32,774 nucleotides of DNA from Bacteroidales bacterium (GTDB lineage: Bacteria; Bacteroidota; Bacteroidia; Bacteroidales; 4484-276), in the NCBI GenBank assembly GCA_012523265.1, contig JAAYIU010000476.1:1-32774 (forward strand), written 5' to 3'. Numbering within the stretch: the stretch's first letter is position 1; every line of letters starts with the position of its first letter. Below the pieces are notes generated by a model. That model was given only the letters and a program-made list of their open reading frames with translations. It was not told the DNA's origin and ran no database searches. The translations under genes and the position numbers were made by a program. This document shows, piece by piece, positions 20,898-32,774 of this stretch.

Positions 20898-22199
20898 CTA
20901 AAGGATGTTCAGTCGGTTGGCGTCGAGTTTTATAAAAATAAACAGCAGGATAGTGAAAGCCCACAGCGAGGAGCCGCCGTAGCTAAAAAAGGGCAACGGG
21001 ATACCAATCACCGGGAATAGTCCCAGGGTCATGGCGATGTTGACGGCAAAATGGAAAAATAAAATGGACGCCACGCCATAACCATAGATTCGACTGAAGG
21101 CGGAGCGTTGTCGTTCGGAGTGCAGGATGATGCGAACAATGAGCAATACAAACAACGCCACCACCAACGTGCTGCCGATAAAACCCCACTCTTCGCCTAC
21201 AGTGCAGAAGATAAAATCGGTGCTTTGTTCGGGGACGAAATTATACTTGGTTTGGGTGCCTTTAAGAAACCCTTTGCCTGCAAAGCCTCCCGATCCTATT
21301 GCGATAAGCGACTGGTTTACGTTATAGCCGGCGCCCTTGGTATCGGTTTCTTTTCCCAACAAAACATTGATGCGGCTGCGATGATGCGGCTCAAGCATAT
21401 TATCGAAAGCATAATCAACCGAAAAGACAAACCCGGAAGCAAGCACCAGAAAGGTTATCAGAATAGCAACACTTCGCAAAGTTCGCCGCATCAATATCAG
21501 CAGCAGCGCAGTCACCAGCAGCAAGCCCGCTATGATTATCCACTGCTCGATGAGCAGCGCCATCAGAAATAAAATGACGACAATTAATGCGATGATGAGC
21601 ACGTGGCCGGTCATCCCTTCGCGATAAAAAACAAAGATGAAAGCAGCGTACACCAACGCCGAACCGGTATCGTTTTGCAAGAAGATAAGTCCTGCCGGAA
21701 TAGCCAGAATAAGGAATGCTTTAAAAACAGAGCTGAATTTACGAAAGTCGATATTAGAACCACCCAGATAATTGGCTACCGCCAGACAGGTTGCAAATTT
21801 GGCAAACTCGGCCGGCTGAAGCGAAAAGCTGCCAATCTGAAACCACGACTTGCTGCCCGCGATCTCTTTACCAAATATCAGTACACCTACCAGCGCCGCT
21901 ATCGTCAACAGATAAATAACCATCGAGAAGGCAGAGAAAAATTTGGCGTCGGTGAGCAGAATTATCAGCGCCAGCACCAGCGAGCTTCCGATAAAAATCA
22001 TCTGCTTGCCATAACGCTGCGAAAGATCGATGATGGAGCTGTGATCTTCGTCGTAGATGGCTGCGTAAATGTTAACCCATCCCAGCAAAACCATCACCAG
22101 ATAGAGCAGAACCAGCCACCAGTCGATATTGCCGAATATGTTTGTGCGTGATCTCAATTTTTGGTGATTAAATTCGTTTCGAGCATTTTCTTTTAACAC
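20898..22199 (-). CDS. rodA: Rod-shape SEDS glycosyltransferase RodA
   Basis: An integral membrane SEDS-family peptidoglycan glycosyltransferase of 433 residues, partner of PBP2 in cell elongation. About ten hydrophobic segments run from residue 28 onward. Recognisable conserved pieces are SWFQIGSFSLQPAEFAKF, the FLQNDTGSALVY segment, and FVPEQSTDFIFCTVGEEWGF, which contains the SEDS signature near the active site, followed by GIPLPFFSYGGSS. Its start overlaps the end of mrdA by 7 bp, so translation is likely coupled. Both genes run on the minus strand. An ORF at 20677-20964 in another frame is a shadow. Confidence 0.96.
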   Translation of the reverse strand: MLKENARNEFNHQKLRSRTNIFGNIDWWLVLLYLVMVLLGWVNIYAAIYDEDHSSIIDLSQRYGKQMIFIGSSLVLALIILLTDAKFFSAFSMVIYLLTIAALVGVLIFGKEIAGSKSWFQIGSFSLQPAEFAKFATCLAVANYLGGSNIDFRKFSSVFKAFLILAIPAGLIFLQNDTGSALVYAAFIFVFYREGMTGHVLIIALIVVILFLMALLIEQWIIIAGLLLVTALLLILMRRTLRSVAILITFLVLASGFVFSVDYAFDNMLEPHHRSRINVLLGKETDTKGAGYNVNQSLIAIGSGGFAGKGFLKGTQTKYNFVPEQSTDFIFCTVGEEWGFIGSTLVVALFVLLIVRIILHSERQRSAFSRIYGYGVASILFFHFAVNIAMTLGLFPVIGIPLPFFSYGGSSLWAFTILLFIFIKLDANRLNIL

Positions 22200-23977
22200 C
22201 AGGGCGACTTAAAATCGCCCAGCAGATATTTCATCATCATCAGGGTAGCAATAGGCGCCGCATAGGTAGAGCCATAGCCGGCATTTTCGACCACCACTGC
22301 AATGGCAATTTTGGGATTCTCCACAGGCGCAAAGGCAATAAAGATGCTGTGGTTTTCGCCGTGAGGATTTTGAACCGTTCCTGTTTTCCCACCCATAGTA
22401 ATGCTGTCGTGGGCGTAGTAACGTGCGGTACCGTGGCTGCCAGCATATACCCGACGCATCCCTTCAGCCACCGGCTCGAAATGCCGTGGTTCGACCATTG
22501 TATTATGACGGATAAATTCGAGTGGGGTGCGTACGCCATTTTTTACAATAGCTTTCCCGATATGCGGATCGTAGTAAAATCCGCGGTTGGCAATAATTGC
22601 TGAGAGATTGGCCAACTGCAGCGGCGTAACCAGCAACTCGCCCTGCCCGATAGAAAGCGAACGGATGGTCATGCTGCGCCACACATTTTTACCAAAGTAC
22701 TTGTCGTAATATTCAGGTTCAGGCACGTTGCCGCCACGCTCTACCAGCAGATCGGTATTGAAAGTTTTTCCCAGATTAAAAGCAAGCAGATACTGCCGCC
22801 ACTTTTCGTAGGCCCGGCGTGTGGAACCATACGCCGGATTGTCGATGATGGCTTTGAAAACACTCCAGTAATATGGGTTGCACGATTGCTCGATAGATTC
22901 GATCAACTGCAGCGGCGAGTAATGGTTGTGGCTGCACCGAATTGGTAATGCGCCCACACCCGCACATTGGAATTCGGTAGATGGACTGATGACGCCCTCT
23001 TGCAGTCCTACCAGCGCATCCACCAGTTTAAAAGTGCTTCCGGGGGGATACATGGCCAGCAAGGCTCTGTTGAAAAGTGGCACCAGTGTATCGGTGGAGA
23101 GCAGGTTATAATTTTTGCTGCGCACCCTTCCGATGAGCAAATTGGGATCGTACGACGGGCTGGAGATCAGCGCCAGGATTTCGCCGGTGGCAGGTTCGAT
23201 GGCCACAATGCTACCTTTTTTGTTGGCCATGAGTTGCTCGCCATACGCCTGAAGGTTTGCATCGATGGTAATGTAAAGATCGGTGCCGGCAATGGAAGCG
23301 GAATCGTAGCGGCCTTCCATATAGCGGCCTTTCACGCGGTTGAAAACATCTACCATCGAGATGCGCAGACCTTTTTTACCACGCAAAGTACTTTCGTAGG
23401 ATTTCTCGATACCGCTCTTGCCGATGTAGTCGGCCGATTTGTAATAAGGATTGGCTTCGATCTCTGCCGGGCTTACTTCGCCGATGTAGCCCAACGTATG
23501 TGCCGCCGAGGGGCGTGGATATTTACGTAAAGTACGCGACTGAACAAAAAAGCCCGGATATTTATAGAGCCGCTCCTCGATAAAACCATACTGCTCCTTG
23601 CTCACCTGTTCCACAAAAATACTTGGCTTGTGCATGGAGTAGCTGCGTGCTTTCTGCAAACGCTTGCGGAACTCTTCGCACGAAAGATCAAGCAGGCTGC
23701 AAAATTCGGTTGTGTCAGGATTCTTTACAAGCCGCGGCACCACCATCAGGTCGTAGGCAGCTTCGTTGTAAACCAGCAATTCGCCATTGCGGTCCAAAAC
23801 CAAGCCACGCGCAGGATATTGTACTTCGTAACGCAACACATTGTTGGTGGCCGAGAGCACATACTTTTCGTTGATGAGCTGAACGTAAAATAGCCGTAAA
23901 ACGAAAATCAGTCCCGCGGCAATAACAATTGCAGAGACTACAAATTTTCGGTTTTCAAATATCTTCTTCTGAACCAT
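22193..23977 (-). CDS. mrdA: Penicillin-binding protein 2 (elongasome transpeptidase)
   Basis: A class B PBP of 594 residues that cross-links peptidoglycan during elongation with RodA. It has one N-terminal membrane anchor (about 13-33), a pedestal/dimerisation domain starting at VQYPARGLVLDRNG (52-65), and a C-terminal transpeptidase. The active-site serine is S314 in STFK, the second motif is SCN (365-367) and the third is KTG (531-533, GKTGTVQNP). Length is typical. It overlaps rodA by 7 bp. In many Bacteroidota the mre genes lie just upstream; here the upstream gene is an unrelated lipoprotein. A full -7 box lies 32 bp before the ATG. Confidence 0.96.
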   Translation of the reverse strand: MVQKKIFENRKFVVSAIVIAAGLIFVLRLFYVQLINEKYVLSATNNVLRYEVQYPARGLVLDRNGELLVYNEAAYDLMVVPRLVKNPDTTEFCSLLDLSCEEFRKRLQKARSYSMHKPSIFVEQVSKEQYGFIEERLYKYPGFFVQSRTLRKYPRPSAAHTLGYIGEVSPAEIEANPYYKSADYIGKSGIEKSYESTLRGKKGLRISMVDVFNRVKGRYMEGRYDSASIAGTDLYITIDANLQAYGEQLMANKKGSIVAIEPATGEILALISSPSYDPNLLIGRVRSKNYNLLSTDTLVPLFNRALLAMYPPGSTFKLVDALVGLQEGVISPSTEFQCAGVGALPIRCSHNHYSPLQLIESIEQSCNPYYWSVFKAIIDNPAYGSTRRAYEKWRQYLLAFNLGKTFNTDLLVERGGNVPEPEYYDKYFGKNVWRSMTIRSLSIGQGELLVTPLQLANLSAIIANRGFYYDPHIGKAIVKNGVRTPLEFIRHNTMVEPRHFEPVAEGMRRVYAGSHGTARYYAHDSITMGGKTGTVQNPHGENHSIFIAFAPVENPKIAIAVVVENAGYGSTYAAPIATLMMMKYLLGDFKSPWC

Positions 23978-24009
23978 TCTACTTTCGGATTATAAAAAAT
24001 ACGGCACTG

Positions 24010-24017
24010 CAAAAGTA
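24010..24017 (-). promoter_or_regulatory. Bacteroidota -7 box of mrdA-rodA
   Basis: Read on the minus strand this is TACTTTTG in the context TGTACTTTTGC, identical to the box before the peroxiredoxin gene. It ends 32 bp before the mrdA ATG. No clear -33 TTTG is visible. Confidence 0.6.
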
Positions 24018-24120
24018 CACACCAAGCCGGTAGGTATTTATTTTAATAACTAAATCTTTTGATGCCGGAAGGTAAAATCCCAAAAGTAGATAAAACAAAA
24101 TCCAAATAAGGAAGCCCTTC

Positions 24121-24639
24121 CTACGGGTTGCGCACTACGATGAGTGGCGTAATAACGGTGTCGCTGTGGTGGCCAGCGCGGTCGACCATGTGCACCCTGA
24201 ATTGTATTGTATCGAAGGCTGCTGTGGAGCGCGGATCGTAAAGTGGCTTGATGGTATCTTCTATCTCGCCTTTGATCCATCCGCTGTAATCGTCGGGGGT
24301 GAGCGGGCCAAAACGGTTGTTGAAATTTATCGTGTCGAACTTCCCGCTGATGTTGTTGTAAACAGTTCCGGGCACCAGCGCGCCATCTTTCATTACATAA
24401 TAAGCCACAAAGAAATTGTAAGCGGTAGTGTCGAATTGTGAAATGCCCAGGTCGCCATCGCCGTCGGTATAGGTGATGCGCAGGATGCCCAGCGTGTCAA
24501 AACCTAAAGGATGCACCAGCTTGGTAAAACCGGCAAATTCGATGTGCGGGATGATGGGGTAAGTTTCCTTTTTCATACACGAACCCATCAGCAAACCCAT
24601 TGCGATAAGCAACAATACTATTTTTGAAGGCGTTTTCAA
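24121..24639 (-). CDS. Small Bacteroidota lipoprotein, unknown function
   Basis: A 172-residue lipoprotein with signal helix 5-18 and lipobox LMGSC, lipid on Cys21. The mature part contains LRITYTDGDGDLGI (about 52-65), a segment I associate with a common Bacteroidales lipoprotein family of unknown role, and PRSTAAFDTIQFRV near the end, suggesting a small beta-sandwich. No enzymatic motif is visible. It is divergent from the LuxE-like gene (77 bp between starts) and upstream of mrdA on the same strand, but mrdA has its own -7 box 104 bp downstream of its stop. Surface or periplasmic location is inferred only from the signal. Confidence 0.8.
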   Translation of the reverse strand: MKTPSKIVLLLIAMGLLMGSCMKKETYPIIPHIEFAGFTKLVHPLGFDTLGILRITYTDGDGDLGISQFDTTAYNFFVAYYVMKDGALVPGTVYNNISGKFDTINFNNRFGPLTPDDYSGWIKGEIEDTIKPLYDPRSTAAFDTIQFRVHMVDRAGHHSDTVITPLIVVRNP

Positions 24640-24716
24640 TTTGTGTTGTTAATCGGATGTCAATAATAATGTTATTAAAATAATTTTTCGTTTTAAAATG
24701 CAAATCCTCAATCCTC

Positions 24717-25703
24717 ATGAAAAACCCCTATCCGGATCAAATTTTCGAGATCGAAGATGATGATAGTTTCAACGAGCTGGCGTTAAAAATATTTCGCTAT
24801 CAATACGATGGCAACAAGATTTACCGCTCCTTTGCGGATCATCTTAAAGTGAACGTCAGCCGCATAAATCGTCCGGAGCAGATTCCATTTTTACCAATTG
24901 AATTTTTTAAGTCGCAGCGCGTTCTTAGCGGCAGCTACACGCCTGCCGGATATTTCGAAAGCAGCGGAACAACGCAGGCTGCAACGAGCCGGCACTATTT
25001 TCCTGATCTGGCGATGTACGAAAAATCTTTCCTGCGCGGTTTTGATCGGCTTTTTGGATCTTCTGAAAAATATAACATTCTGGCGCTTTTGCCTTCCTAT
25101 CTCCAGCAAAAGCATTCGTCGCTGGTTTACATGGTCAGCAAACTTATCGTGCAATCAGGGAAAAAGGAAAGCGGATTTTATCTGGATAATTACGCAGCGC
25201 TGGCCGAAAAGCTCGACGCGTTGCACCACTCAGGAGAGACGGTGATACTGATGGGTGTAACTTATGCGTTGCTCGATTTGATCGAAAATTACGACCTAAA
25301 GCACACCCGGCTCGTCGTGGTGGAAACCGGCGGCATGAAAGGTCGCCGCCCCGAAATGATACGCGAAGAGCTGCACCGCCGGCTTACTGCAGGTTTTGGT
25401 GTTAAAAAAATCCACTCCGAATATGGCATGACCGAACTATTTTCGCAGGCCTGGTCGGTGGGTGATGGAATTTTTAATGCGCCACCGTGGATGAAAATAA
25501 TGATTCGCGAAGTGAACGACCCGCTGTCGATGGCTGCAAAAGGAAAAACCGGCGGCATCAATGTCATCGATCTGGCCAATCAGCATTCGTGCTGTTTTGT
25601 TGCTACACACGATCTGGGGAAAGTGTATCCCGATGGCTCCTTCGAAGTGCTTGGCCGCTTCGACCACGCCGATGTAAGAGGCTGCAATCTATTGGTCGAA
25701 TGA
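24717..25703 (+). CDS. LuxE/PaaK-family acyl-adenylating protein
   Basis: A 328-residue protein of the LuxE acyl-protein synthetase group, which belongs to the ANL adenylate-forming superfamily. Visible features are LPIEFFKSQRVLSG (59-72), the nucleotide-binding ESSGTTQAATSRH (81-93), a Gly-rich ETGGMKGRR segment (about 200), and SEYGMTELFSQA, matching the adenylation Y-G-x-T-E motif. LuxE activates fatty acids and transfers them as thioesters, but there are no luxC, luxD or luxAB genes here, so bioluminescence is not implied. Possible roles are acyl activation for lipid or secondary metabolism. It is transcribed away from the small lipoprotein and followed by the pseudouridine synthase 72 bp downstream. 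Confidence 0.88.
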   Translation: MKNPYPDQIFEIEDDDSFNELALKIFRYQYDGNKIYRSFADHLKVNVSRINRPEQIPFLPIEFFKSQRVLSGSYTPAGYFESSGTTQAATSRHYFPDLAMYEKSFLRGFDRLFGSSEKYNILALLPSYLQQKHSSLVYMVSKLIVQSGKKESGFYLDNYAALAEKLDALHHSGETVILMGVTYALLDLIENYDLKHTRLVVVETGGMKGRRPEMIREELHRRLTAGFGVKKIHSEYGMTELFSQAWSVGDGIFNAPPWMKIMIREVNDPLSMAAKGKTGGINVIDLANQHSCCFVATHDLGKVYPDGSFEVLGRFDHADVRGCNLLVE

Positions 25704-25737
25704 TTCTTATACTAAAAGCAGAGTTGATTAGTTTTGT

Positions 25738-25745
25738 TAATTTTG
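25738..25745 (+). promoter_or_regulatory. Bacteroidota -7 box of the pseudouridine synthase
   Basis: TAATTTTG fully matches TAnnTTTG and ends 30 bp before the ATG at 25776, in the context TAATTTTGCC. A TTG at 25724-25726 is too close to serve as the -33 element. Confidence 0.55.
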
Positions 25746-25775
25746 CCGATCAAAAAAAAACGCGCTTAAATTATT

Positions 25776-26768
25776 ATGGCAGACAAAGATAAGCCCCGAA
25801 TAAGGGGCGAAAGAAAAAAACCGGGTGACTTCTCAAAATTTATAAAAAAGGAAACCACTCCCGCCAAGCCAGCAAAGCCAGGGCGACCTTCCAAATTCGC
25901 TAAGCCAGGACGTCCATCGAAATCGTCAAAAACATCCCGTCTTATCAGCGAGCGCTTTCGCGATGAAGAACAAGGAAAAAAATCTGCCCGTGGCAAAGCT
26001 CCCGCCGAGAGAGGACGCCGCCGCACACGGAAAGTAAGCGAATATGTTAAAGATGGCGGCGTCATCCGCCTTAATAAATATATTGCCAACGCCGGCATTT
26101 GCTCGCGCCGCGAGGCCGACAACCTCATTGTGAGTGGCGCCGTGCAGGTAAACGGCGTGGTGGTGAGCGAACTTGGCTCGAAAGTAAAACCTACCGACAA
26201 GGTGCAAATTGGCGGCGAAACACTCGCCTCCGAAAAGCATCGCTATGTGCTGCTCAACAAACCCAAAGGCTACATCACCACTACCGACGATCCCGCCGAC
26301 CGCCGCACCGTGATGATGCTGGTAGAAAATGCATGTAAGGAACGCATCTATCCCGTCGGGCGGCTCGACCGCAATACGTTGGGACTGCTCCTTTTTACCA
26401 ACGACGGCGATCTGGCCAAAAAACTTACCCATCCTTCGAGCCAGGTGCGCAAGATTTACCACGTGCAAACCGACCAACACGTGCGCCCCTCCGATCTGGA
26501 ATCCATCGCCGCCGGCATCCAGCTCGACGACGGCCTCATTAAACCCGACGCCGTAGCGTATGTAGGCGACGGCAAAGACAAAAGGGAAATTGGCCTCGAG
26601 CTGCATTCCGGCAAAAACCGCATCGTGCGCCGCCTCTTCGAATCGCTGGGATATAATGTAACCAAGCTCGACCGGGTGTTTTTTGCCGGCCTCACCAAGA
26701 AAGACCTGCCCCGCGGCCGCTGGCGTCATCTCACCCCCGAGGAAGTTAATTTCCTGCGCATGGTGTGA
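25776..26768 (+). CDS. RsuA/RluB-family rRNA pseudouridine synthase
   Basis: A 330-residue enzyme that isomerises one uridine in rRNA. The S4 RNA-binding domain is at about 96-150 (IRLNKYIANAGICSRREADN). The synthase domain contains the catalytic Asp198 in PVGRLDRNTLGLLLFTNDG and the C-terminal EIGLHSGKNRIVRRL-like region (about 270-290), so RluB (23S) is likelier than RsuA, but RluE/F cannot be excluded. The first ~90 residues are a Lys/Arg/Pro/Ser-rich tail with two copies of KPGRPSK (34-40 and 43-49), an AT-hook-like motif. A terminator lies 35 bp past the stop. Bases at 25926-26867 on the minus strand are a long shadow ORF. Confidence 0.93.
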   Translation: MADKDKPRIRGERKKPGDFSKFIKKETTPAKPAKPGRPSKFAKPGRPSKSSKTSRLISERFRDEEQGKKSARGKAPAERGRRRTRKVSEYVKDGGVIRLNKYIANAGICSRREADNLIVSGAVQVNGVVVSELGSKVKPTDKVQIGGETLASEKHRYVLLNKPKGYITTTDDPADRRTVMMLVENACKERIYPVGRLDRNTLGLLLFTNDGDLAKKLTHPSSQVRKIYHVQTDQHVRPSDLESIAAGIQLDDGLIKPDAVAYVGDGKDKREIGLELHSGKNRIVRRLFESLGYNVTKLDRVFFAGLTKKDLPRGRWRHLTPEEVNFLRMV

Positions 26769-26802
26769 TGCTTTCGCAGTCATTTTATAAAATAAAAATA
26801 AA

Positions 26803-26828
26803 AAAACCCCGCCACACGACGGGGTTTT
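26803..26828 (+). terminator. Intrinsic terminator of the pseudouridine synthase
   Basis: Stem CCCCG (26807-26811) pairs with CGGGG (26820-26824) around an 8-nt loop, extended by AAAA/TTTT on the sides. It is symmetrical enough to work on both strands. Confidence 0.8.
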
Positions 26829-26854
26829 CTGTTTTATAATTTCGGCACTTTTGG

Positions 26855-27021: not shown

Positions 27022-30018
27022 CTACGGCATCATCAGTATTTTCCGGATGGCGGTGCTTTCGCCGGTGCGGATGCGCATGAAACAAACGCCTGCGGCAACG
27101 TTTTGTGGCTGCCAGGTGATTTGCTGCTTGCCAGCCTCCAGGATTCCGTCAAAAACCACATCCAGAAGAGTTCCGTCAGGAGCAAGTACTTCGATGTTGC
27201 AACGGGTGGCAGCAGCCGTAGCAAAAGCAATGGTAACCTGTCCGGACGAAGGGTTGGGATAAACCAGCGTTTGCATCTCCGGCTCCGGCTGGCTGATACC
27301 GACGGTGACGTCAAAAATCAATGGCTCCGACTCCACCGATTCGTTTTGCGTATAATCTACAGTAGTTACCGTGAAGGTTGCGTAGTCGTTGTTATCGGTA
27401 ACATATACCAACTGCGAGCCAATGGTTTCGGCTACCAGCTCGGAGTTGCCGTCGCGATGGAGATAGACATTAAAATGGTCGAAGTCGTTCATGTCAGGAT
27501 AATCCCAGGAGAGCAGCACGGTAATCGGGGCCTCAGCGCGATCCCACCAGATAAAACCATTTTGTGGTGGCTCCGGCATCAAATCTTCCGCATCGAAAGT
27601 GAGGGTACCATAACCGGCAGGGTCGAAAATTTGCATGTTTTGGGCAGGCCAGTATCCATCGAAGTTGGAGGGATCGTCGAGCACAAATAAAAAAAGTCCG
27701 CTTTGGTTGTCTTCGTTGGGCGAGATCTTCCAGTCGGCGTCATCGCCTATCGGAATCATAAATTCATACACCACCACACCCGTAGCATCCGATACTTCAA
27801 TCTGTGGATTTTCGAGCAACACCACATCTCCCACACCGCCCGTGTTGTAGATAGGGCGATAGCGAATCTCGTTTCCGGCAGCGTAATAAACAGCCCAGTA
27901 GTTTCCCTCGGAGTTGTCGCCGGGAGCAGGATAAACCCTGTCCATATTATCGTCGATGTACAAAGCCACCTCATCATGATCTTCAAGCACAGTATCGTTG
28001 GTGTTGATACAGGCCACGTAAAGCTCGGTCATGGCTTCGTTCATTTTGTAATACATCGTCACGCTTCCCACCAGATTGGGCATGTTGTCGTTCGTGCCCA
28101 GAAAATCGGAAGCATCCATTATAAAAGCGTCGTCCCATTCGCCTTCCGAAATCGTCCCGTCAATCACCGGAACGGAACCGCCATAAACAGAGATATTATC
28201 AATTACAAATCCGCTTGCAGTGTAGCCTGCAGCCACCTCAGAATAAGGCGACTGCACATCACCCGGAAATATGGCCGTAACGGCGTAATAATAGGTGGTG
28301 AGCGGAAGCACGTCAGTGTCGGAAAACTCCAGCGCGATGTTAGCAACAGTACCAATCGGCTCTTCAGGAAACTGCGCCTGCTCTATGGTTTTACGATAAA
28401 TCTTAAAACCTTCTACAGCTATAGGATCGCCGTAATCCCACCAAAGATCAACAGAAAGTGCGGCACCCTGGGTGGCCATCAAATCATAGGGAGCCTCACC
28501 GGTGACTTCGAGCGTAAAATCCAGATGGGTCTGACCGCTTTCGGTAATCACCACATTATCGACCGTTACCGGATAAAATCCAACTTTGGAAGCCTGCACA
28601 GTGTAAGTGCCGGCAGGAATAAATCTTACGAGATAATCACCGTTTTCGCTGTAAGCATAATAGTTGTCGATTCCCTGGATTTCAATTTTAGCAAAATCCT
28701 CATTAATGGAGCCGGCAAGAGCGCCGCCCCCGGGATTGGTGTTGACGTTGTAAATCAAACCGCCGCTGCCCATTGCACGGGCATGTACAGCTTTGCCCGT
28801 CACGCTGCACATCATACCATCGCCCGAAAGATCTATGGCGTTGAAGGAGCCGGGTGTGGTGAGCGTAAAAATGGGTTCGTTGGATTCTCTGCGGAAGAAA
28901 TATGCGTCGGGTTTGGAATGGTCGAGCGGACCGTAACCCGCTGCTGCTAATATAGAGCCGTCGTCGGAGAGGCTTACTGCCGCGATCTCATCGCCGCAGT
29001 TGCCAAAAACCCAACGAGGCACCGACGAATAGGTGTCGAAAAGGTAAATCTCGCCATCGTAGCCACCCGACAAAAATACCAGTGTGCCAATGGCCGCCGT
29101 TTTGCCGTCAGCCGAAACGGCCATACCTACCACCCATGCCGAGCTGCCGCCGCCGCCCACTTTAAAATACCATTCCTCCTGGTAAGTTCCCAGGCTTTCG
29201 TGGTATTTGTATAAATAAGCATAGCCGCTGTAGTCGCCGTTGAGCAGGATGTTGCCATCATAACTAAACGAAGGCGGATTTTGGTTTTTATAACCAGCAT
29301 CAAAAATCACTTCGCCGGTTTCGGTATCGATTACCCACAACTTATTGGCGCCGGAATACTGACATACTGCCATTCTGGAACGGTCGCCGGAAGCAGCGGC
29401 AGTGGTAGCCGTGCTAATAAAACCTGTTTGCCACAATGGAGCTGTGTTGCCCACCTCATAGGCCGAAGCCATACATTTGGCATCACTTTCGTTTTCCAAA
29501 ACGTACACTGTGCTCCCGTCTTCGCTCAGAAAGGTAGCCACCAATTGTCCTGGTAATGTCAGCTCCCACACCAAGGCCTGGGTGGCGGTGTTGTAGATGT
29601 GCACGGAGTTGTTGAAGGCAACATTGATAAACATGCCATCGGAGGTCATGTCGATGGGATATTCCCATTCGGTGGGAACCGCCATTTCCCACAGGGGTAC
29701 ATTACTGTCATCCCACAACGACACGCGTTCGTTGTTGAGCCACCACGAGTTGAAGGTGAGTCCCTGCTCATCATCTACCACGATGCGCGAGCCGATACCT
29801 GCCGGATCAGTAAACTGCCAGTTGATTCCCGGCGCCATGGCGGCATCATCCATCAGCTTTCCGTCGGGCAACACGGGAGGAACTGTGGTAGTGGTGGTTT
29901 CGATACTTCGACCCGTTTGCGGATCAGTGATTGTTTTTTGAAGCCAATGATTTTGCGCCACAGCAAAGGGCACAAAACCCATCAGCAGAACCGTGAAAAT
30001 CCAGAACTTCCTGTTCAT
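27022..30018 (-). CDS. Secreted 998-aa beta-propeller protein with T9SS sorting domain
   Basis: A multidomain secreted protein. The signal peptide (1-21) ends VAQNHW, giving an N-terminal Gln after cleavage. Residues about 60-420 form repeated WD40/PQQ-like blades (pattern LSDDGSILAAAG, VSADGKTAAIG). Then come a carboxypeptidase-regulatory-like domain (about 430-505), a fibronectin type III domain (509-605), a CBM9-like region (about 610-810, PVIDGTISEGEWDDAF) and a second FN3 (815-905). A type A T9SS sorting domain follows (916-998, YPNPSSGQVTIAF, ending KILMMP). It should cross the outer membrane by T9SS and be attached to or released from the surface. Ligand unknown; the CBM9-like part hints at glycan or sugar binding. 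It starts 6 bp after the upstream gene's stop. Confidence 0.93.
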   Translation of the reverse strand: MNRKFWIFTVLLMGFVPFAVAQNHWLQKTITDPQTGRSIETTTTTVPPVLPDGKLMDDAAMAPGINWQFTDPAGIGSRIVVDDEQGLTFNSWWLNNERVSLWDDSNVPLWEMAVPTEWEYPIDMTSDGMFINVAFNNSVHIYNTATQALVWELTLPGQLVATFLSEDGSTVYVLENESDAKCMASAYEVGNTAPLWQTGFISTATTAAASGDRSRMAVCQYSGANKLWVIDTETGEVIFDAGYKNQNPPSFSYDGNILLNGDYSGYAYLYKYHESLGTYQEEWYFKVGGGGSSAWVVGMAVSADGKTAAIGTLVFLSGGYDGEIYLFDTYSSVPRWVFGNCGDEIAAVSLSDDGSILAAAGYGPLDHSKPDAYFFRRESNEPIFTLTTPGSFNAIDLSGDGMMCSVTGKAVHARAMGSGGLIYNVNTNPGGGALAGSINEDFAKIEIQGIDNYYAYSENGDYLVRFIPAGTYTVQASKVGFYPVTVDNVVITESGQTHLDFTLEVTGEAPYDLMATQGAALSVDLWWDYGDPIAVEGFKIYRKTIEQAQFPEEPIGTVANIALEFSDTDVLPLTTYYYAVTAIFPGDVQSPYSEVAAGYTASGFVIDNISVYGGSVPVIDGTISEGEWDDAFIMDASDFLGTNDNMPNLVGSVTMYYKMNEAMTELYVACINTNDTVLEDHDEVALYIDDNMDRVYPAPGDNSEGNYWAVYYAAGNEIRYRPIYNTGGVGDVVLLENPQIEVSDATGVVVYEFMIPIGDDADWKISPNEDNQSGLFLFVLDDPSNFDGYWPAQNMQIFDPAGYGTLTFDAEDLMPEPPQNGFIWWDRAEAPITVLLSWDYPDMNDFDHFNVYLHRDGNSELVAETIGSQLVYVTDNNDYATFTVTTVDYTQNESVESEPLIFDVTVGISQPEPEMQTLVYPNPSSGQVTIAFATAAATRCNIEVLAPDGTLLDVVFDGILEAGKQQITWQPQNVAAGVCFMRIRTGESTAIRKILMMP

Positions 30019-30024
30019 TTTTAG

Positions 30025-31974
30025 TTAGTTTTTAATTAATAAACCGCGATTTGTTTGTAGTTGTGTTTGTATGGTATAAAAATAAAGTCCCGAACTAAAA
30101 GTTTGTGTGTCGATCACAAGCGCACCTGGTGTATCAACAATTGTGGTTGCGTAAACCTTGCGACCAAAAGCATCGCTTATGGCCACAAAACAACTTCCTA
30201 CTATATCATCAGGCACCTGCAAAGTTAGCATATTACCAAATGGATTGGGAAACCATTCTGTTTTTGTTTGCACATCCGATCTCAGGCCTGTAATTTCGGT
30301 AATCGGTTGCAGATAAAAATCGTAGTTGGTATTCATCCCTTCCTGCACCGATATATTCTCAACAGTCATCGGGAGATAACCTTCCGCCTCACAGCTAAGA
30401 TTGTAAATGGCTTCCGTTAGCATCATGCTGTAATGTGCGCCAAAGGGAGTAGCAATGGTGATGGTTTCATCGTCGGCGTTCAGCGCTGTGATGGTAGCTT
30501 CGGAGATGGATAAATTGTTGGTGGCATCGCGCACAAAGCCCTGAATTTTTCCCGTCGCGCCCACGATGCCCAGCGTACCGTCGGGATGAATGTTTTGGGC
30601 ATAAATGTCGGTATTTCCGCCGCGGCTTTCTTCCCACACAGCCACCCATTGGTTGTTGTGCATCGTCGAAAGCACTGCGTGCGTTTTGCCACTTTGCACC
30701 GAGCACATATCTATAAACTGATCGTTCCACACATAGGCGCCATCGCTGTCGAGCATCACCGCCTGTACCTTTTCGTCGACCGAATTTCCAAAGACGGCAG
30801 CACCGTAAACGCATAGCGCTTTGTCCTGATAGCCGGAAGCCATGGGCAGCGAGTAGTCGTTGTTAGAAAGTGGCAGCAATATTTTACCATCATCGCTCCA
30901 CTTGCGGTTGCCCTGCGTGTCGAACTTCTGGGCATACAGCCCGCGCTGGTTTTGGTTGAGATCCTGCTCGCTGAAATAAACTACGATTTCCTGTGTTAGC
31001 GGCAGAAAAGCCGGCGAGGGATACATGTGCAGCCGGGCCATCGAAGTAGAAACAAAAGTATTCACAGGCATGGTAAGGGTGCCGTTAGCCGTCATGTGCT
31101 GCACCCAGCAGTTGAAGTGCGTCCCTACGTCGTTGCCGTATTTGGTAAAAACAATGCCGCCGGCATCATCCGGGCAAAAATCAAGCGTGATTACCGCTCC
31201 GGATCCTACCGGAGGGAAAACCTCCAAATCGGCAGGCCACATAAAAGTGCCGTCGGTGTCGAGCTTTTGTGCGTAGAGGCCGCGGTTGGCTGCCCAGAAA
31301 GGGCCTGTTTCTTTGTGCCAGATCAGTAATGCGTGGTCGCCGTCGGCGGGATGCAAAAACGGAAAGGTATAGGAAGTTTCGGTCGATGAAAGCATGATGC
31401 CAGCGTCGCCCCAGAGCAAATCGCCCGCCGGGGATACTTTTTGCATCATCACCACATTGACGTCGCCCTGGCTTGGCCAGGCAAATACCAAATTACCAGC
31501 CTGGGTGGCGCACACCTGTGGGTTTACGTCGAAAGCATCGCTGTTGGAAAGCATCAGCCCATCGTCGCCCCACATCATTTCGCCGGCAGGCGACACACGG
31601 TAAGCCACCACGTTGTTATCGGTATTGCGGATGTCCTGAAACACTACCACAGCATAGCCCGTCTGATCGGCAGTAAGCGAATAGTCGGTGAGCCACGACA
31701 TTTGGGGGTGGTCGCTTACCAACAGTCCGCCCGGCGCCCACTGTTGATTGCCGTTGGCATCGAGTAGCTGCAAGCGCACGTTATAATTTCCATCTTCCGA
31801 CGAAAACCACGACACGTACATACTGCCGTCGGGACACACAGCCGCCTTGGGCAGCACCTGCTCGCCGGCAGCAGTGCTCAAACGAAGGTTTTCGGCAGGA
31901 TTGGATGAATACTGCGCCCAAAGAAGCGGGGCGGCAAAAACGAAAAGAAGAAAAATGGATAAAGACTTTTTCAT
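30025..31974 (-). CDS. Secreted 649-aa propeller-like protein with T9SS sorting domain
   Basis: First gene of a two-gene operon with the 998-residue protein (6-bp gap). The signal peptide (1-20) ends LLWAQYSS, leaving Gln at the mature N-terminus. Residues about 30-470 contain repeats of the form 'WGDDGLMLSN' and 'LLWGDAGIMLSS' with recurring aromatic-Asp-Gly segments, typical of beta-propeller-like blades. A carboxypeptidase-regulatory-like domain follows (about 475-560, GFVRDATNN and MTVENISVQEGM). The T9SS type A sorting domain is at 573-649 (WFPNPFGNMLTLQV, ending LLIKN). No catalytic motif is visible, so it is probably a structural or binding surface protein. Its promoter should lie in the 213-bp gap shared with the next, divergent gene. 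Confidence 0.9.
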   Translation of the reverse strand: MKKSLSIFLLFVFAAPLLWAQYSSNPAENLRLSTAAGEQVLPKAAVCPDGSMYVSWFSSEDGNYNVRLQLLDANGNQQWAPGGLLVSDHPQMSWLTDYSLTADQTGYAVVVFQDIRNTDNNVVAYRVSPAGEMMWGDDGLMLSNSDAFDVNPQVCATQAGNLVFAWPSQGDVNVVMMQKVSPAGDLLWGDAGIMLSSTETSYTFPFLHPADGDHALLIWHKETGPFWAANRGLYAQKLDTDGTFMWPADLEVFPPVGSGAVITLDFCPDDAGGIVFTKYGNDVGTHFNCWVQHMTANGTLTMPVNTFVSTSMARLHMYPSPAFLPLTQEIVVYFSEQDLNQNQRGLYAQKFDTQGNRKWSDDGKILLPLSNNDYSLPMASGYQDKALCVYGAAVFGNSVDEKVQAVMLDSDGAYVWNDQFIDMCSVQSGKTHAVLSTMHNNQWVAVWEESRGGNTDIYAQNIHPDGTLGIVGATGKIQGFVRDATNNLSISEATITALNADDETITIATPFGAHYSMMLTEAIYNLSCEAEGYLPMTVENISVQEGMNTNYDFYLQPITEITGLRSDVQTKTEWFPNPFGNMLTLQVPDDIVGSCFVAISDAFGRKVYATTIVDTPGALVIDTQTFSSGLYFYTIQTQLQTNRGLLIKN

Positions 31975-32187: not shown

Positions 32188-32774
32188 ATGAAAAAGTACT
32201 TCTTCCTAACATTGTTCCTTTTCACAATTGGCTTCCAGGCCAATCTTCACGCCCAAGGCTACCAGGATCTTTGGAATGCTACATTCACCCAAAATGGCGA
32301 TCGCAGTGAGGCTCAAATTCTTCACAATGATTTTTACAATAATGTTTTTGTAAGCATCAATTATCACGACACTGTTTTTTTGCCGGATACGGTGTTTTCA
32401 CATCCTACCCATCCTTATGTGGCGCTCAATGCAGCCGTTGCCAAATTCGATCAGGACGGGAATTTTTTGTTTGCACTTGACCTGTTTATAGATACAATAG
32501 GTTTTTATTGGATAAGGCCCGCCATGACCACAGACCGCAACAACAACATCTATCTCGCCTGTGCATTTGCAAACCGGATGAGCATACAGGACACAATAAT
32601 CCAGGATGAACAGCACGGCCTGTTTAATTTTCATCCATACGATCTCGCCATAATAAAGCTGTCGCCTGATCTCAAAATACAATTCATCAAACTCATCTCG
32701 GGTAATGCCAGTGACCAATGCGGGGGAATTTTTGTAGGTAATGACGGGTATTTATACCTGAACAGCATCCATAC
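32188..32774 (+). CDS. Secreted protein, 3'-truncated by window edge
   Basis: Open from ATG 32188 to the end of the window without a stop (195 codons visible). The signal peptide MKKYFFLTLFLFTIGFQANL ends HAQGYQDLW, with cleavage predicted before Gln. The visible mature part has long beta-strand-rich stretches with AKFDQDGNFLFALDL and IFVGNDGYLYLNSI, the style of SBBP/propeller-type repeats found in T9SS cargo, but the C-terminus that would show a sorting domain is off the window. A tiny ATGAAATTATGA lies just upstream (start 32180) and is probably noise. It is divergent from the two-gene propeller operon (213 bp between starts). Length and final domains cannot be judged here. Confidence 0.8.
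   Translation, partial: MKKYFFLTLFLFTIGFQANLHAQGYQDLWNATFTQNGDRSEAQILHNDFYNNVFVSINYHDTVFLPDTVFSHPTHPYVALNAAVAKFDQDGNFLFALDLFIDTIGFYWIRPAMTTDRNNNIYLACAFANRMSIQDTIIQDEQHGLFNFHPYDLAIIKLSPDLKIQFIKLISGNASDQCGGIFVGNDGYLYLNSIH

Follow-up and report, generated by a model that had tools for sequence, protein, structure and literature searches.

Adjacent genes for two predicted T9SS cargo propeller proteins in one family of Bacteroidales

Multidomain proteins of the type IX secretion system (T9SS) with no assigned role are numerous in genomes of this kind, and one locus of a Bacteroidales bacterium raises the question of what two such proteins, encoded side by side, might do together and whether it is their pairing that sets them apart. 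No publication on the pair was found among titles and abstract starts, most subscription journals lying outside the scope of that search.

The gene pair and its predicted export

The window, by which we mean the whole analysed stretch of 32,774 nucleotides, carries on its minus strand gene A (30025–31974), the first of the pair, and gene B (27022–30018), the second. The original prediction had given them as two open reading frames of 649 and 998 residues, 6 bp apart (30019–30024), and an ORF check of the window confirmed coordinates and strand, with A upstream of B. Both are annotated here as T9SS cargo propeller proteins, A from its reading frame, domains and structural model, and B from its reading frame and domains. 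Because the gene next 3' of B is convergent and the gene next 5' of A divergent in the ORF map, the transcription unit is limited to A and B at most, and the two are probably co-transcribed. A terminator-like stem-loop of 13 pairs past B (26801–26830, minus strand, readable on the opposite strand too) was picked up by a consensus scan only, and the promoter and terminator scans of the window gave counts at or below those of shuffles, the total of terminator sites not exceeding the shuffled one. The divergent gene upstream of A (32188–32772) runs off the contig end and has no NCBIfam match at cut-off.

Signal peptides of both proteins were recognised by eye, and at the C-terminus of each a T9SS type A sorting domain matches both Por_Secre_tail (PF18962) and TIGR04183 above cut-off (A residues 575–649, 30028–30252; B residues 919–995, 27034–27264; both on the minus strand). 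SprA of the T9SS translocon (TIGR04189) is present in the window's own genome; it is found in 371 of 393 genomes of the order, and no genome bearing A or B is among the 20 listed of the 22 that are SprA-negative. Since the sorting domains occur together with SprA in the genome, a role of A and B as type A cargo of the T9SS is well supported.

Two components of the T9SS itself resemble A and B in part. According to the passages of PMC5445135 that deal with them, PorE (PG1058) is periplasmic and combines a propeller with three further domains (carboxypeptidase-regulatory-like, TPR and OmpA_C-like), and PorZ (PG1604) is a surface protein with two large propellers and a CTD sorting domain. On that description, PorE is like A and B in having a propeller together with a carboxypeptidase-regulatory-like domain but unlike them in its TPR, its OmpA_C-like domain and its periplasmic place, whereas A and B carry sorting domains; neither TPR nor OmpA_C-like has a Pfam match in A or B at E up to 1, so that the layout of PorE is found in neither. 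PorZ, as described there, resembles A and B in its combination of propeller and C-terminal sorting domain but has two propellers, whereas one was found in A (by its model), followed by CarboxypepD_reg, and one in B (by sequence). PorZ does not appear among the best 60 of the 106 profile matches of B or in the best-50 fold lists of A, an absence that excludes nothing.

Propeller folds and accessory domains

Residues 25–471 of A (30562–31902, minus strand) are predicted to form a beta-propeller with repeats of about 56 residues. A model built from three sequences (mean pLDDT 69, pTM 0.63) aligns over these residues to many solved propellers among the best 50 matches of a fold comparison, and on the evidence of this model A contains the fold that a propeller lectin would have. 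A period scan of the A-family profile gave a repeat of 56–57 residues, which over about 450 residues suggests that the propeller is eight-bladed. The Foldseek TM-score of the whole chain is low (at most 0.39 by query among the best 50 matches), the A propeller profile has no sequence match to solved chains at E up to 0.1, and single-sequence searches of A, and likewise of B, recovered mostly CarboxypepD_reg relatives.

Among the best 50 fold matches of A, the highest Z belongs to the enzyme CylK (Z 22.7, 4.8 Å over 345 residues), and the Photorhabdus PLL/PHL lectins, which are like A in their propeller fold but 9–13% identical to it in the alignments, are found at Z 19.2–21.4. The same matches include two further enzymes, BT3686 (Z 21) and a rhamnose-glucuronate lyase (Z 18–19). 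Since enzymes score as high as lectins against the A model, the fold cannot separate a binder from an enzyme, and one or both propellers may be enzymes, such as a lyase or hydrolase of glycans whose C-terminal modules help to hold the substrate, a reading that the conserved K/H/R cluster GKAVHAR of B would also favour. We consider it unlikely, given that the identity to the fold matches (CylK, BT3686 and the lyase) is 8–14% in the alignments, that lectins score about equally, and that neither A nor B reaches the cut-off of any enzyme family in Pfam or NCBIfam. In these two collections only CarboxypepD_reg and the sorting domain reach cut-off, which agrees with the original prediction that the proteins are without known function.

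The propeller of B (residues ~64–430, 28729–29829, minus strand) was called from profile matches to solved propellers, the model built from three sequences being unusable (pLDDT 38). The best of the 106 matches of the B-family profile is the surface-layer protein 1l0q (E 2.6e-10), after which come BamB, TolB and WD40 proteins; as one match among 106, 1l0q shows only that B is a propeller. The match is partial and common to many propellers, and B differs from 1l0q in adding a GKAVH-type motif and T9SS domains. Seven SxDG-like motifs, 40–50 residues apart, were picked by eye out of ten pattern matches in B, and no clean peak emerged when B was scanned for a period. The propeller-like repeats of the original prediction are supported for A by model, fold and period and for B by the profile matches. 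Aligned to each other by hhalign over 218 columns, the propeller profiles of A and B match weakly (probability 84%, E 7.2e-6, identity 17%), with some signal in common, as expected of two propellers.

The B propeller ends in a motif of the form GKAVHAR..GSGG (residues 408–422, 28753–28797, minus strand), which was located by a pattern search of the B family. Of 30 B-family proteins, 29 have it at the end of the propeller in the form GK[A/G]VH..G.G and one, L138, reads GKAIH; it occurs in none of 33 A-family proteins. Since the pattern was devised after viewing an alignment of 21 members and three distant members, the count of 29 in 30 is a description and not an independent test.

Behind its propeller B carries a CarboxypepD_reg (residues ~437–504, 28507–28710, minus strand; PF13620, E 2.2e-9 over 455–504), a domain present in all 21 aligned members of the B family, 15 of which have the sorting domain as well. 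The two FN3 domains and the CBM9-like region that had been claimed for B were not detected by Pfam in the window's own protein, and the calls made from its relatives are weak. An FN3-like region with limits set by eye (residues ~508–603, 28210–28497, minus strand) corresponds to PF00041 matches in 6 of the 21 aligned members, with a PDB match of the window's B at E 0.18, and a possible second one (residues ~822–908, 27295–27555, minus strand) was seen in the alignment, by eye only. For the CBM9-like region (residues 605–815, 27574–28206, minus strand), Pfam finds CBM9_1 in 1 of 16 family members (E 1.5e-4), and in the PDB the profile of the region aligned to gelation factor alone, in short and doubtful stretches of E 0.019 at best; its IDG..GEW motif is found in 17 of the 21 aligned members, the remaining four ending at contig edges before the motif.

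Conservation of the pairing and origin of the layout

A search of twelve genomes of the window's family gave a B match in ten, G001 (64% complete) and G007 having neither an A nor a B match at 1e-10. In nine of these ten A lies directly upstream of B, in the same strand and order and with gaps of 5–141 bp (first-ATG ORFs); in the exception, G005, another gene is found upstream of B, and A, on a separate contig, faces a gene unrelated to it. Beyond the family, 19 B loci were compared, and beside B there was no A match at 1e-5, the lone A match there being to B's own CarboxypepD_reg (L142); the G108 match to B, which starts at the first base of its contig, was left out of the neighbourhood comparison. 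The pairing is therefore lineage-specific, and B does not need an adjoining A, so that the conserved neighbourhood for which a search had been proposed was found within the family but at none of these outside loci.

Retention of the pair in one family would also fit a structural role, in which A and B were parts of a surface scaffold or layer and had each other or further cargo, in place of an external ligand, as binding partners, and the place of the surface-layer propeller at the head of the B matches could be read in the same way. Such a role seems to us improbable, as that protein is one match among many propellers of other kinds and B without an adjoining A is the rule outside the family. 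A further explanation, and quite an unlikely one in our judgement, is that A and B are unrelated cargo proteins which are adjacent through shared descent and are regulated in common but have no joint function. It draws on the correlation of A and B identities (0.94 over 36 pairs of nine genomes), which is as with any two vertically inherited genes, and on a downstream block (20898–26768, with genes for a PBP2-like transpeptidase and a LuxE-like protein) that is retained 3' of the pair in the window, G011 and G008. However, the pair persists while its surroundings change: no two upstream neighbours fall in one cluster at the seven loci where these are visible, and L069 and L070 have other genes downstream than the window has, the remaining loci ending there.

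Both genes are also found further afield. In the order, 15 of 393 genomes have a B match at 1e-40 or below, as have 5 of 17 from one further family, and at 1e-30 or below B is matched in 7 of 385 genomes of a phylum sample in which the window's genome is counted; A matches at 1e-20 or below occur in 67 of the 393. A-like genes are present in 12 of the 15 B-bearing genomes of the order as compared with 55 of the other 378 (Fisher p 7.4e-8, kinship ignored) and, outside the family, in 8 of 11 against 55 of 377 (p 3.6e-5, kinship again ignored), in lists whose cut-offs differ (1e-20 for A and 1e-40 for B) and for which scoring stopped after the first few candidates of each genome. Kinship may explain this excess.

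The 33 collected members of the A family have the propeller in common and vary in their C-terminal part, where Por_Secre_tail is found in 24, CarboxypepD_reg in 12, PKD in two and a dockerin in one. The CarboxypepD_reg of the window's A (residues 477–556, 30307–30546, minus strand; PF13620, E 9.1e-10) is a genus-level addition, being present in all four A proteins of the window's genus and in none of six, one a fragment, from the remaining genera of the family, whose A genes align to the window's only up to residue 472–479. Among ten own-genome loci searched, three, which encode large proteins on contigs C413, C415 and C411, have copies 47–56% identical to it, a recurrence that suggests shuffling of such domains among the secreted proteins of this genome; a copy at a fourth is 33% identical, and the CarboxypepD_reg of B 29% over 52 residues. 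Since the domain of A is, within the family, confined to the genus and is nearer to these copies than to that of B, the likeness in layout between A and B is partly a later, separate addition. The shared layout of the original prediction thus stands in that both proteins have a CarboxypepD_reg and a sorting domain, but the former is, among the A proteins of the family, found in the window's genus alone; and the view that the paired architecture was the unusual part was not upheld, the pair being absent from all 19 outside loci examined, A-type propellers occurring in 67 of the 393 genomes of the order with changing C-terminal modules, and the CarboxypepD_reg of A having its closer relatives elsewhere in the genome.

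Other arrangements of A-type genes were seen in passing. In L118 (3134–12158 of contig C46 of G145), five A-type propeller genes, 24–28% identical to A, stand in tandem, flanked by two further large genes on the same strand. In L102, L103 and L107, from three other genomes, an A-type gene is followed by a large same-strand gene of common clusters, and the one that was scanned, in L102, encodes an FG-GAP/PKD protein bearing a sorting domain.

A candidate surface binding pair

The reading of A and B that we favour, held tentatively and at somewhat less than an even chance, is that of a co-transcribed, T9SS-exported, non-catalytic binding pair at the cell surface, with a polysaccharide as its likely target. 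The two genes would be transcribed as one unit, both proteins would cross the inner membrane via Sec, and their C-terminal sorting domains would then lead to type IX export to the cell surface or the outside. There A would contribute a lectin-like propeller and B a second one, carried on a stalk of CarboxypepD_reg, FN3-like and CBM9-like parts and with the conserved GKAVH-type site as its likely functional face; the polysaccharide could be the cell's own or environmental. We infer the binding role from the fold, the lack of an enzyme family match and the weakly supported CBM9-like region, as we infer co-transcription, secretion, joint action and a glycan ligand, and the surface binding module of the original prediction is a fair guess.

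In other respects A and B belong to an ordinary, large and known class of secreted proteins, and what is particular to them is the lineage-specific pair and the motif-marked B family. Six members of that family come from outside the class, three of them long (1248–1273 aa) and three short (542–556 aa), the short ones with matches to propellers and with a sorting domain but lacking CarboxypepD_reg. It is conceivable, if rather doubtful, that B represents an undescribed group of Bacteroidota secreted propellers marked by GK[A/G][V/I]H, ranging from these short propeller-plus-sorting-domain proteins to multidomain ones of up to 1273 aa, and that in one Bacteroidales family A was recruited as its fixed partner, the two together forming a double-propeller receptor at the surface for one particular glycan. 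The pair and the motif-marked propeller provide a concrete target, with a family signature, residues to alter and a partner for a test of joint function. In one further genome (G351, L082, 1–2901), a B-type propeller is preceded by some 400 N-terminal residues that are lacking in the other members.
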